64,000 nt of DNA, from contig NZ_SKCH01000001.1 of assembly GCF_005434945.1 (NCBI RefSeq), forward strand, positions 310,001-374,000, in the 5' to 3' direction. The notes under the pieces are model-generated. The model searched no databases. It saw only the letters and a program-made list of their open reading frames with translations, and was not told the origin of the DNA. The position numbers and the translations under genes were made by a program. The stretch is from Prescottella subtropica (lineage in GTDB: Bacteria; Actinomycetota; Actinomycetes; Mycobacteriales; Mycobacteriaceae). This document shows positions 38,521 to 43,431 of this stretch, piece after piece (position 1 is the stretch's first letter; every line of letters begins with the position of its first letter).

Positions 38521-40228
<1,708 letters not shown>

Positions 40229-40360
40229 ATGAGTGTGTCGTTCCTGAAGGCGGCATCGGATCTGCTGAATGGTCTGCTGACAGACCTGTTCTCCGGCTCG
40301 GTCATGCCGGGAGTCGGGGGTCTGAACAGCTCGCTGGCAGACGTTCTCCGGCTCAGCTGA
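40229..40360 (+). CDS. Small amphipathic peptide 1 (43 aa)
   Basis: First of five tiny ORFs. Its 43 residues are one likely amphipathic helix (FLKAASDLLNGLLTDLF, 5-21), then FSGSVMPGVGG, then NSSLADVLRLS. There is no signal peptide, no Cys and no strong charge. The GSV core (Ser24) recurs in all five peptides, and SSLADVL recurs at the start of peptide 2. ATG 40229 follows GAGAGGGTGGG. Not recognised as a known family; in size and character like the mycomembrane peptides PorA/PorH. Confidence 0.65.
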   Translation: MSVSFLKAASDLLNGLLTDLFSGSVMPGVGGLNSSLADVLRLS

Positions 40361-40404
40361 GCCCGATCAATCTGAATGATTTTCTCCGACAAGAGGAGTG
40401 ACCG

Positions 40405-40539
40405 ATGAAGTTGAGTTCGCTCGCCGATGTCCTCGACGGCCCCTTCGCTGCGCTCATCAACAGCGTCATGGCGCAGTTGCTGTTCATGCCGCTGCAGGGC
40501 TCCGTCGACATGGGCTGGGAGCCCGTTCTGCCTGTCTGA
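40405..40539 (+). CDS. Small amphipathic peptide 2 (44 aa)
   Basis: 44 residues, starting MKLSSLADVLDGPFAALIN. A strongly hydrophobic helix (14-30) is followed by QGSVDMGWEPVLPV, with the shared GSVD core at Ser33. AAGAGGAG lies 6 nt before the ATG. It begins 44 nt after peptide 1. No signal peptide. Third codon positions are mostly G or C, as expected for a real gene here. Confidence 0.65.
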   Translation: MKLSSLADVLDGPFAALINSVMAQLLFMPLQGSVDMGWEPVLPV

Positions 40540-40575
40540 TCAGGCTTCTGAAACTACACGGAAGGGGAAAACATA

Positions 40576-40779
40576 GTGGATACCGGAAGTCTCGTCGACC
40601 TGGTCACCAGTGTCGACCTCGGATCCCTCACGGACCCGATCGCATCGATGAAGGATGTGGTCGATGCGCTGTTCAAGGTCGTCGGTGACGTGATCGGCCT
40701 CTGGCCGGCAGGGTCCGGCGCAGCGAACGGCAGTGTCGATGCGCTCCTCACCGGTCTCGGCTCCGCCGCAGGCCAGTAA
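40576..40779 (+). CDS. Small amphipathic peptide 3 (67 aa)
   Basis: The longest of the set. GTG start at 40576 with GGAAGGGG upstream. Three GS units (GSLVD, GSLTD, GSVDA; Ser5, Ser17, Ser53) frame an amphipathic helix (SMKDVVDALFKVVGDVIGLW, 24-43). The C-terminus is GLGSAAGQ. It is rich in Val, Leu, Asp and Gly, with two lysines and no Cys or aromatic besides F and W. It begins 36 nt after peptide 2. Confidence 0.65.
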   Translation: MDTGSLVDLVTSVDLGSLTDPIASMKDVVDALFKVVGDVIGLWPAGSGAANGSVDALLTGLGSAAGQ

Positions 40780-40797
40780 CCAGGGAAGGAAGAACGC

Positions 40798-40911
40798 ATG
40801 TTCGATCTGTCTGTCACCTACAGTTCCGACATCTCGAAGTTCGGGTCCGTCGATCTGGTCGCCACGTTCACGAAGTTCCTGAACGCGCTGTCCCTCGCGC
40901 CCACAATCTGA
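40798..40911 (+). CDS. Small amphipathic peptide 4 (37 aa)
   Basis: 37 residues with the shared KFGSVDLVATFTKFLNALS core (14-32; Ser17). 32 of 37 codons end in G or C. AGGGAAGGA precedes the ATG and the gap from peptide 3 is 18 nt. No signal peptide. It could span a membrane as an amphipathic helix only in a multimer. Confidence 0.62.
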   Translation: MFDLSVTYSSDISKFGSVDLVATFTKFLNALSLAPTI

Positions 40912-40926
40912 CGAAAGGAACCGGCG

Positions 40927-41025
40927 ATGCTGCAGAAGTACATCAACAACTTTCTGATCGGTTCGGTCGAATCGATCGTGGGCTTCACGGCTCTGGGGAG
41001 CACGCTCCTCAAGACCCCGAAGTGA
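40927..41025 (+). CDS. Small amphipathic peptide 5 (32 aa)
   Basis: 32 residues, MLQKYINNFLIGSVESIVGF then TALGSTLLKTPK. The GSVE core is at Ser13, and a second GS at 24-25. 28 of 32 codons end in G or C. GAAAGGA lies 6 nt upstream of the ATG, 15 nt after the peptide 4 stop. It is the last peptide before the acyltransferase gene. Confidence 0.62.
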   Translation: MLQKYINNFLIGSVESIVGFTALGSTLLKTPK

Positions 41026-41053
41026 TCGACTCGCACATGGTGGTGTGAAGATG

Positions 41054-41086
41054 CTGGGCTCGAAGGTGAATCATCTTCGGGCCCAG
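41054..41086 (+). terminator. Hairpin between peptide cluster and acyltransferase
   Basis: A 12-bp stem with one G-U pair (41054-41065 with 41075-41086), nine-base loop, followed by TAATCGTCGT rather than a U-run. It lies 29 bp after peptide 5 and 48 bp before the acyltransferase start. It may lower read-through so that peptides are made in excess over enzyme, or protect the upstream mRNA 3' end. Confidence 0.5.
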
Positions 41087-41133
41087 TAATCGTCGTCCCA
41101 CTGTGGTTCCGTGACGATCTCCCGAGGAGTGCC

Positions 41134-42537
41134 ATGACGCTGTCTTCCCACGACGCCGACTTCGTCTACAACGAGTCCGACGGGCACCTCGGCCATGTCT
41201 TCGCCGTGTATCTGTTCGACACCACCGGACATCCCGAGTCGGAGTTCACGCACGAGCAGGCACTCCGGTGGACTGCCGAGCGACTCGGTCACCACGACCT
41301 GTTCACACACGCGGTCCGGCGCGTACCCCTGGGGCTCGAACACCCCTACTGGCAGCCGGTCTCCGTGGACGCCCGTGACCACGTCCGTGTCACCCCGATC
41401 ATCGGATCCGGCTGGGCGCCACTACAGGAGCAGTTGAGCGTCCTGCTGACCACACGTATGGACCTCGCGCGACCGCCGTGGGAGTTGCACTTCTTCACCG
41501 GTATCGAAGGACTCGACGATCTACCCCACCGCATGACGGCTGTGGTGTTCAAGGTTCATCACAGCGCCGGCGACGGGTTGGCAGTCCTCGGGATGGCCCA
41601 CAGTCTCTTCTCCGACCGGACAATGTCGGTATCACAGGCGCAACAGGCGCCGCTCCTGCCCGTTCGGATGCTCGCACGTTCGATCTTGGAATTCCCCGGT
41701 CGCGTCCTGCGTTTCGTCCGGGCCGTCCCCGACAGCCGGGACGCAGGCAGTGCCGTAGCAGAGGAACTGGCCGCCGGCACCTGGGACGGTGAGCGTGAGC
41801 AGCCGTCGACCCGATTCAACGGTGCGGTCAGTGGGCGAGTCGCCCTGTCGTCGACCGTCTTCTCCCTGAACCGGATTCGTCGGATCAAGGAGATGGTCCC
41901 CGGCTCCACCGTCAACGACGTCGTACTCACCGCCGTCGGTGCCGGGCTCGCCGACTACCTGGAGCGGCAGCACGAACCGCATCGTGGCTCACTCGTCGCG
42001 ACGGTACCCAGATCCATGCGGACGGTGGAGGAATCGGAGTCGGCCAACCGACTGGCGATCATGGGCGTCGACATGCACACCGACATCGCGGACCCGATCG
42101 ACCGATTGACGGCGATCGTCCGGTCGTCGCGGTCGGAGAAGACCCGCACCGCGCATCCTGCGGTGCGTCGGCAGGCCGCGGCGTCGGAGACCGCCCCGCC
42201 GCCACTGATGCGGCTCATCGCGTACGCGCGGAAGAAGAACGACCACGACCCGAGCCGTCCCCGCTACCAGCACACGATGGTGAGCAACATGCCGTTCACC
42301 GTCGACGGTCTCACGCTGAACGGGGCGCCCGGTGTCGCCGCGATCGGTGGACAACCCCCGGTCGACGGTGACGGTCTGCGCCACTTCGTGATCGCGGCGG
42401 ACGGTGACCGGCTCACCCTCACCGTCGTCGCCGATGCCGCGTCGATGCCCGACCCCGGCCACTATCTCGATCTGATCCGGGGGCGTCTCGACGAACTCGA
42501 GGAGGCCGCCGCGCACCCGCGTTCGGCGTTAGTCTGA
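41134..42537 (+). CDS. WS/DGAT-like acyltransferase
   Basis: 467 residues, full length for the wax ester synthase/diacylglycerol acyltransferase family. The catalytic HHxxxDG motif is HHSAGDG near residue 143; the structural PLW-like N-terminal region and SNMPFTVDGLTLNGAPG near 385 are present. The family moves an acyl group from acyl-CoA to an alcohol. Here it follows five serine-bearing peptides on the same strand, so a peptide hydroxyl is a possible acceptor (inference); storage lipid synthesis is the conventional alternative. ATG 41134 follows CGAGGAG. Confidence 0.85.
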   Translation: MTLSSHDADFVYNESDGHLGHVFAVYLFDTTGHPESEFTHEQALRWTAERLGHHDLFTHAVRRVPLGLEHPYWQPVSVDARDHVRVTPIIGSGWAPLQEQLSVLLTTRMDLARPPWELHFFTGIEGLDDLPHRMTAVVFKVHHSAGDGLAVLGMAHSLFSDRTMSVSQAQQAPLLPVRMLARSILEFPGRVLRFVRAVPDSRDAGSAVAEELAAGTWDGEREQPSTRFNGAVSGRVALSSTVFSLNRIRRIKEMVPGSTVNDVVLTAVGAGLADYLERQHEPHRGSLVATVPRSMRTVEESESANRLAIMGVDMHTDIADPIDRLTAIVRSSRSEKTRTAHPAVRRQAAASETAPPPLMRLIAYARKKNDHDPSRPRYQHTMVSNMPFTVDGLTLNGAPGVAAIGGQPPVDGDGLRHFVIAADGDRLTLTVVADAASMPDPGHYLDLIRGRLDELEEAAAHPRSALV

Positions 42538-42579
42538 ACAGCGCACGTGCCGCAGTAGTCGAGGCGATCGGAGCAGGCG

Positions 42580-43431
42580 ATGTCACCCGTGAACGAGACC
42601 CGGCCGGTGATCGTGGGCGTCGACGGATCCGACGCCTCCCGCCATGCCGTGCAGTGGGCGGCCGCCGAGGCACACGCCCGCAAGGTTTCGTTGAAACTGG
42701 TGCACGTCATCGACACGGAGAACGACTTCCCGTTCGCCGCGGACGACCTCGAGGAGGAAGAGGCGTTCGGTCGGGAAGCGCTGAAAGCGGCCCGGGAGGC
42801 CGCGACGATCGAGGACTACACGCTCGACATCGAGGTGGAACTGCTGCGTGGCCGGGTGAACCGGGCATTCGTGGATCTGTCCGAGCATGCGAGCCTGCTC
42901 GTCGTGGGCTCCGTCGGCAGCGGCTTCTTCACCCGCATGGTCCTCGGGTCGACGGCCCTGTCCCTGGCACACCACGCCAAGTGCACGGTTGCGGTGATCC
43001 GCGGCGCCGACGGCAGCCCCGTCCCACCCACATCCGGTCCCGTCGTCGCCGGCGTGGACCATTCGGACAGTGCCGACATCGTCGTCGGCACCGCGATGCA
43101 GGAGGCGTCCATCCGGCACGCCGAGATGACCGCCGTACATGCGCGCCGCCGCCGCGGCAGCCACGAGGCCGACGAGGAGGCCCGCGCCCGCATCGACCGG
43201 CTGATCGCGACATGGGGTGCGAAGTTCCCGTCGGTGCCGGTGGAGACGGTGCTCGCCGAGGCCGGCCCGACCAAGCATCTCGTCGCACTCAGCTCGACGG
43301 CCCGTGCGATGGTCGTCGGCAACCGCGGCCGGGGCGGCTTCGAGAGCGCGCTGCTCGGCTCGACGTGCCAGTCGCTGCTCTATCACGCGCAATGCCCCGT
43401 CATCGTCGCCCGCACCCGGGCCACCCCCTGA
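42580..43431 (+). CDS. Universal stress protein, tandem UspA domains
   Basis: 283 residues: two UspA folds (about 1-140 and 150-283). ATP-binding loops VVGSVGSGFFTRMVLGSTA near 107 and VVGNRGRGGFESALLGSTC near 243 are intact in both halves, so it should bind ATP like mycobacterial Usp proteins of hypoxia and stasis. The ATG at 42580 has GGAGCAGG upstream. It starts 42 bp after the acyltransferase. Confidence 0.9.
   Translation: MSPVNETRPVIVGVDGSDASRHAVQWAAAEAHARKVSLKLVHVIDTENDFPFAADDLEEEEAFGREALKAAREAATIEDYTLDIEVELLRGRVNRAFVDLSEHASLLVVGSVGSGFFTRMVLGSTALSLAHHAKCTVAVIRGADGSPVPPTSGPVVAGVDHSDSADIVVGTAMQEASIRHAEMTAVHARRRRGSHEADEEARARIDRLIATWGAKFPSVPVETVLAEAGPTKHLVALSSTARAMVVGNRGRGGFESALLGSTCQSLLYHAQCPVIVARTRATP

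Follow-up and report, generated by a model that had tools for sequence, protein, structure and literature searches.

In Corynebacterium, the porA and porH genes are situated between groEL2 and ppk2 (PMC3792995, PMC5944148). PorA, PorH and ProtX lack a signal sequence, and a 2025 preprint describes their export route as unclear (PMC12632848). The O-mycoloylation of PorA and PorH in C. glutamicum is reported to depend exclusively on Cmt1 (PMC11066868), while ProtX of the same species is described as a very small, O-mycoloylated and signal-less protein (PMC5310785, PMC12632848). The Rhodococcus channels described in PMC9233653 are of the MspA type.

Here, we describe five genes of less than about 70 codons which lie side by side, as those of the PorA/PorH type do, and which are followed by a gene for a predicted WS/DGAT-family O-acyltransferase. 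They were found in a 64 kb stretch of DNA, called the window throughout. With PorA and PorH, as well as PorACj and PorACur, the five peptides share that they are tiny, without an evident signal, predicted to be helical and encoded by adjacent genes; a groEL2 neighbourhood in some relatives and Cmt1-like genes in the genome are also common to both. However, the PorA/PorH systems comprise one or two peptides with other sequences, whereas here five peptides are accompanied by a WS/DGAT enzyme, and the copy in the window lies away from groEL2. ProtX, likened to these peptides by description alone, is also tiny and signal-less, but it is a single gene. As for the MspA-type porins, outer-membrane channels of related bacteria (PMC9233653), these have about 200-270 aa and signal peptides, whereas the five peptides are far smaller and match neither the MspA domain nor any other Pfam family (E up to 10).

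Five small protein-coding genes

The features of the locus, with invariant residues taken from alignments of 14-17 chosen rows, are as follows:

40229..40360, plus strand: ORF1, 43 aa; G23-S24 and P27 shared by all 15 aligned rows, that of the window included
40405..40539, plus strand: ORF2, 44 aa; S5 and S33 shared by all 17 aligned rows
40576..40779, plus strand: ORF3, 67 aa, GTG start; M1, S5, S12 and D14 invariant in 14 aligned rows
40798..40911, plus strand: ORF4, 37 aa; F15-G16-S17, L20-V21 and S32 among the invariant columns in 15 rows
40927..41025, plus strand: ORF5, 32 aa; G24-S25 shared by all 17 aligned rows
41053..41087, plus strand: strong hairpin with no T run, between ORF5 and the enzyme gene; ends judged visually in the fold
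41134..42537, plus strand: predicted WS/DGAT-family O-acyltransferase, 467 aa; HHSAGDG motif; peptide-associated branch

The original prediction had listed five head-to-tail ORFs of 43, 44, 67, 37 and 32 codons with high-GC third positions, and both statements proved correct (GC3 of 0.77, 0.89, 0.78, 0.86 and 0.88 from ORF1 to ORF5). It had also assigned each ORF its own ribosome-binding site. Clear sites precede ORF2 (AGAGGAG), ORF4 (AAGGA) and ORF5 (GAAAGGA), and that of ORF3 is GGAAGGGGAAAA, but ORF1 has only a weak GAGAGGG about 12 nt upstream, which is weaker still in genome G005. GTG is the start of ORF3 in every fully read copy, in the genus as well as in relatives. Nowhere else on either strand of the 64 kb do five SD-led ORFs of 30-70 codons, with ATG or GTG starts, lie without overlap within 805 bases.

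A Gly-Ser pair is a recurrent trait of the peptides, being invariant in ORF1 (23-24), ORF4 (16-17) and ORF5 (24-25), while ORF2 and ORF3 have invariant serines. By eye, none of the five has an evident signal peptide, i.e. a charged start followed by a hydrophobic core and a cleavage site, in agreement with what had been predicted. Their supposed amphipathic character was upheld for ORFs 1-3, whose hydrophobic moment exceeds that of shuffled sequences (fractions 0.014, 0.004 and 0), but not clearly for ORF4 and ORF5 (0.09 and 0.16). Single-sequence AlphaFold models, of low to moderate confidence, suggest three helices for ORF3 (mean pLDDT 68) and one helix for ORF4 (mean pLDDT 72). No Pfam or NCBIfam model was found for any of the peptides (E up to 10). 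A phage origin was considered and rejected, the PHROGs containing no matching family at E up to 0.1, and no convincing relative of ORF3 was present in the PDB (best E 0.15).

All five ORFs recur, with their order unchanged, in 12 of the 14 genomes of the genus (Prescottella, R. equi group), and the block is also present, with order and frames kept, in relatives of R. erythropolis (group g23). Nine genomes of this group were matched, each of them by the ORF3 and ORF4 profiles, and the seven loci read out of the nine show four or five ORFs each. The ORF3 profile matches 12 of the 14 genus genomes and, in the family, 22 of 401 genomes from three genera; the ORF4 profile matches 26 of 401, three of these weakly, and weak ORF4 matches in group g9 were excluded from membership. 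In genome G009, the ORF3 profile also weakly matches a protein (L044:1063-1641) with a signal-like start and C-terminal Gly-Ser-Leu repeats.

Starts and stops of the five ORFs are conserved across the compared genomes, and the frames are kept in the 12 genus genomes. For the joined ORFs, dN/dS in seven genome pairs was 0.32 (window and G005, ORFs 2-5 only), 0.25, 0.21, 0.29, 0.38, 0.21 and 0.34. Single ORFs gave 0.08 to 0.52, with one exception of 1.1 (ORF2, G012-G010); ORF5 of the pair G168-G298 was too diverged for the correction. The five ORFs are real protein-coding genes. Preserved frames and a recurring layout of peptides and acyltransferase had been named as checks, and both were observed, the latter in the genus and in the R. 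erythropolis relatives.

The stretch bearing the hairpin has an MFE z of -4.7 in the window. In 9 of 12 genomes, the 112 nt starting at the ORF5 stop gave z <= -3.5, with differing sequence, the remainder being G002, G012 and G284. The hairpin might act as a partial terminator or a 3' stabiliser. No sigma-70 promoter was found at 39700-42700, and a search for T-run terminators over this interval returned a single terminator-like site, on the minus strand.

A WS/DGAT branch with peptide neighbours

The HHxxxDG acyltransferase expected 3' of the peptides on the same strand was confirmed by its HHSAGDG motif and by both Pfam domains (PF03007, E 6.8e-32; PF06974, E 9.5e-11), each above its cut-off. 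HHxxxDG is kept in 12/12 aligned rows, the window's own included, and a profile of the enzyme matches 6chj, an enzyme of known structure, at E 1.7e-36. Although both domains and the motif are common to the WS/DGAT family, the window enzyme belongs to a separate branch, scores below the cut-off of TIGR02946 (273.8 against 309.95 bits) and has peptide neighbours. A second set of enzymes (type-B, as opposed to type-A of the window), at about 35-40% identity, is accompanied by a different peptide family, mostly located downstream and with many members starting MGS.

In a tree of 78 WS/DGATs, both sets belong to one supported group of 49 (98/94), twelve rows of which (loci L288-L299) had been fetched for their peptide matches. 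Within 2.5 kb on either strand, Gly-Ser peptides accompany 45 of these 49 branch members as opposed to 2 of the 29 other WS/DGATs in the tree. We also counted neighbours in 55 genes chosen by hand from the WS/DGAT match list, with the window gene included, L288-L299 omitted and L257 fetched for its groEL2; branch membership was set from the 78-gene tree. Here, same-strand Gly-Ser peptides lay within 2.5 kb of 21/26 branch genes and 0/29 genes outside the branch (Fisher 8e-11), and p values of this order (about 1e-10) serve as guides, overstating independence because the genes are related by descent. Peptides on either strand were found beside 23/26 and 2/29, respectively. All these neighbour counts are lower bounds, because the peptide filter missed real peptides: it gave a single match in the window and none at L176, where two are present. 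The window enzyme is a member of a distinct WS/DGAT branch that travels with small Gly-Ser peptides.

Among the 14 genus genomes, the type-A enzyme and the five ORFs occur together in 11, peptides only in one and neither in two (p 0.03). When type-B peptide matches with E below 1e-5 are taken, peptide and enzyme of this type are both present in ten genomes and both missing in four (p 0.001), a weak peptide match in G005 (E 0.004) being left out. The type-B peptide profile matches 49 of 301 family genomes from eight genera, some of them weakly; weak matches in g4, g27 and G005 were excluded from membership. The anticipated co-occurrence of peptides and enzyme was seen in other genomes. One of the refuting cases named in the original prediction nevertheless applies in part, as G011 has the five ORFs and no branch enzyme, and in G009 the neighbouring copy is broken. 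The latter is a broken WS/DGAT copy (L256:10255-11214) following intact five ORFs, with an intact branch member elsewhere in the genome (L286). Both G006 and G009 contain a branch enzyme without the peptides beside it. The WS/DGAT match search found nothing in four small genomes of genera g3 and g5 (G015, G017, G045 and G047); we regard g3 as Corynebacterium because PorH-like genes adjoin groEL2 there. A plasmid origin of the enzyme was rejected: at E up to 1e-20, only two records among 72,556 from plasmids match, with identities of 27-31%.

groEL2, Cmt1-like genes and the relation to PorA and PorH

The WS/DGAT gene of the window is flanked by a Glyoxalase-domain gene and by a gene for a universal stress protein, and does not lie at groEL2. 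The same flanks surround the WS/DGAT gene at all eight further genus loci (L280-L287), two of which (L286 and L287) have no five ORFs beside it. Elsewhere, several R. erythropolis relatives included, the orthologous five-ORF block is located 1.6-7.4 kb from groEL2 (L296, L085, L297, L257 of G006 and L256 of G009). In G006 and G009, the block begins downstream of groEL2, at distances of 6.3 and 7.4 kb, and more Gly-Ser peptides are nearby. At L298, groEL2 is directly 3' of the enzyme gene.

Cmt1-like genes are present at sister loci; Cmt1 is presumably the MytC of other papers. Close relatives of Cmt1, whose substrate is putative, adjoin sister peptides and groEL2, whereas none is encoded within the window. 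In the 55-gene set, a Cmt1-like gene lies within 5 kb of 15/26 branch genes and of 0/29 non-branch WS/DGATs. The R. erythropolis relative at L296 has the order groEL2, five ORFs, two WS/DGATs and two more Gly-Ser peptides; the opposite strand carries a gene for an S9 peptidase together with two Cmt1-like genes, of which one is cut by the end of the stretch, and the whole assembly from groEL2 to the Cmt1-like genes spans about 14 kb. Of these two Cmt1-like genes, one has Cmt1 as its best PDB match (E 4e-83), with Ag85 matching more weakly. In type-B loci of the genus, the WS/DGAT is followed by two peptides and these by a PF00756 enzyme, whose start looks signal-like by eye; extra Gly-Ser peptides are often present as well. 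For the type-B Ag85-type enzyme of the window genome, the best PDB match is Cmt1 (E 4e-53; Ag85C, 1e-23). In G033, a Cmt1-like gene (E 2.5e-73) and then PPK2 come after groEL2, with no Gly-Ser peptide seen between.

Further small proteins were noticed in these regions. Between groEL2 and lpd, the genus has peptides of 26-27 residues ending in FGSVTELS or similar, placed before dihydrolipoyl dehydrogenase (L240:6949-7347; also L241-L244, L246, L247, L256 and L257, groEL2 forward), mostly together with a 50-residue Gly-Ser peptide; a Cmt1-like gene is close by in at least L240-L248. A peptide starting MGSSEII, with a Ser/Gly-rich end, lies near groEL2 at L246:3287-3427 (groEL2 forward), L247:3251-3391 and L256:3245-3385. 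Downstream of the type-B locus, three to four more Gly-Ser peptides are encoded at L163:7979-8944 and its equivalents in L164 and L168-L170 (L170 reversed), one family of which has 88% mean column identity over six rows. Proteins with signal-like starts, alike by eye, are located between groEL2 and the five ORFs at L085:2559-3249 and L257:6862-7602 (groEL2 forward); that of L085 has no Pfam match.

Comparison by hhalign with PorA-like (four rows) and PorH-like (two rows) profiles gave no pair above 15%. Homology of ORF4 to PorA, proposed from a shared look, was not borne out (8.7%). ORF4 shares FGSV with the 27-residue peptides of the groEL2 locus (77% one way and 67% the other, over 13 columns), a motif too short for kinship to be claimed. 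As one PorH-like query, searched against the 121 genomes of the genus it comes from, matches only five (its own among them), such peptides are poorly detected, and a link to them is therefore beyond the reach of sequence comparison. Since sequence similarity was not found, the five peptides are not classed as PorA/PorH members.

Proposed function and competing explanations

In our opinion, the locus probably encodes acylated, apparently signal-less mycomembrane peptides which work like PorA and PorH, with the WS/DGAT enzyme acting in the same pathway. The reading of the locus as an acylated membrane peptide system, already contained in the original prediction, thus gains from PorA/PorH-like size, the lack of an evident signal, the conserved layout and the Cmt1-like/groEL2 context, but sequence kinship with PorA/PorH did not emerge. 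For the location, acylation and assembly of the products and for the roles of enzyme and hairpin, we infer the following course. The five short, hydrophobic and apparently signal-less peptides would reach the mycolic-acid outer membrane, where their helices could assemble into a channel or an envelope complex, similarly to PorA, PorH and ProtX. Acyl chains on serine would anchor them, the conserved Gly-Ser motifs being the likeliest sites. The neighbouring WS/DGAT, from a branch presumably dedicated to such peptides, would serve the same pathway, in our preferred version by cytoplasmic O-acylation of the peptides ahead of export, and external mycoloylation would fall to Cmt1-like enzymes whose genes lie at other places in the genome. 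The hairpin between ORF5 and the enzyme gene would hold the enzyme level under the peptide level.

From the repeated neighbourhood, the adjacent enzyme may itself acylate the peptides, but G011 lacks the enzyme, the G009 copy is broken, Cmt1 alone is reported for C. glutamicum and the four g3/g5 genomes gave no WS/DGAT match; we consider this full version less likely than not. It is a serious though not the leading possibility that the mycomembrane peptides are mycoloylated by Cmt1-like enzymes only and that the adjacent WS/DGAT has a separate function in envelope lipids: the exclusive role reported for Cmt1 in C. glutamicum (PMC11066868) and the peptides without branch enzyme in G011 fit this well, but an association repeated over several genera, layouts and two enzyme sub-branches does not. 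Somewhat less plausible is the synthesis of a neutral ester lipid (triacylglycerol, wax or other) by the WS/DGAT, with the peptides coating or organising this lipid in droplets or envelope and not serving as substrates. Enzymes that make lipids have the same family and motif, and the amphipathic ORFs 1-3 would suit a lipid surface; however, none of the 29 other WS/DGATs examined has same-strand peptides beside it, and sister loci contain Cmt1-like enzymes, for which the known relatives suggest a site of action beyond the plasma membrane.

The run of several short, partly amphipathic peptides could also recall a secreted multi-peptide bacteriocin or surfactant accompanied by an enzyme for its tailoring. 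We find this improbable, as the set is kept in 12/14 genus genomes, the two flanking genes tested concern neither immunity nor export, leader-like starts are absent by eye and relatives show the Cmt1-like context. Chance ORFs or an untranslated leader RNA, which the short size and the absence of family models might bring to mind, are strongly disfavoured to the point of being barely credible, given joined dN/dS of 0.21-0.38 and conserved starts and stops. Going beyond the favoured reading of PorA/PorH-like mycomembrane peptides, we regard it as possible, though less likely than not, that the WS/DGAT branch has turned into a protein O-acyltransferase which acylates the Gly-Ser serines inside the cell and so enables exit to the mycomembrane, the operon then belonging to a large class of peptides that is unannotated and spread over several genera.

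In the literature outside subscription journals, we found no description of the same system. What appears to be new here is an operon not covered by the family libraries and a new enzyme travelling with it, while the functional likeness to PorA/PorH is suggested by context. The recurring peptides and the enzyme branch suggest that rhodococci and related bacteria have a so far hidden family of outer-membrane peptides modified by lipids. As the peptides escape Pfam and NCBIfam, a class of envelope proteins of these bacteria may be missing from annotations, and proteomics of solvent extracts gains named peptide targets. The peptide-travelling acyltransferase branch provides a concrete candidate for the step of signal-less export outside Corynebacterium.
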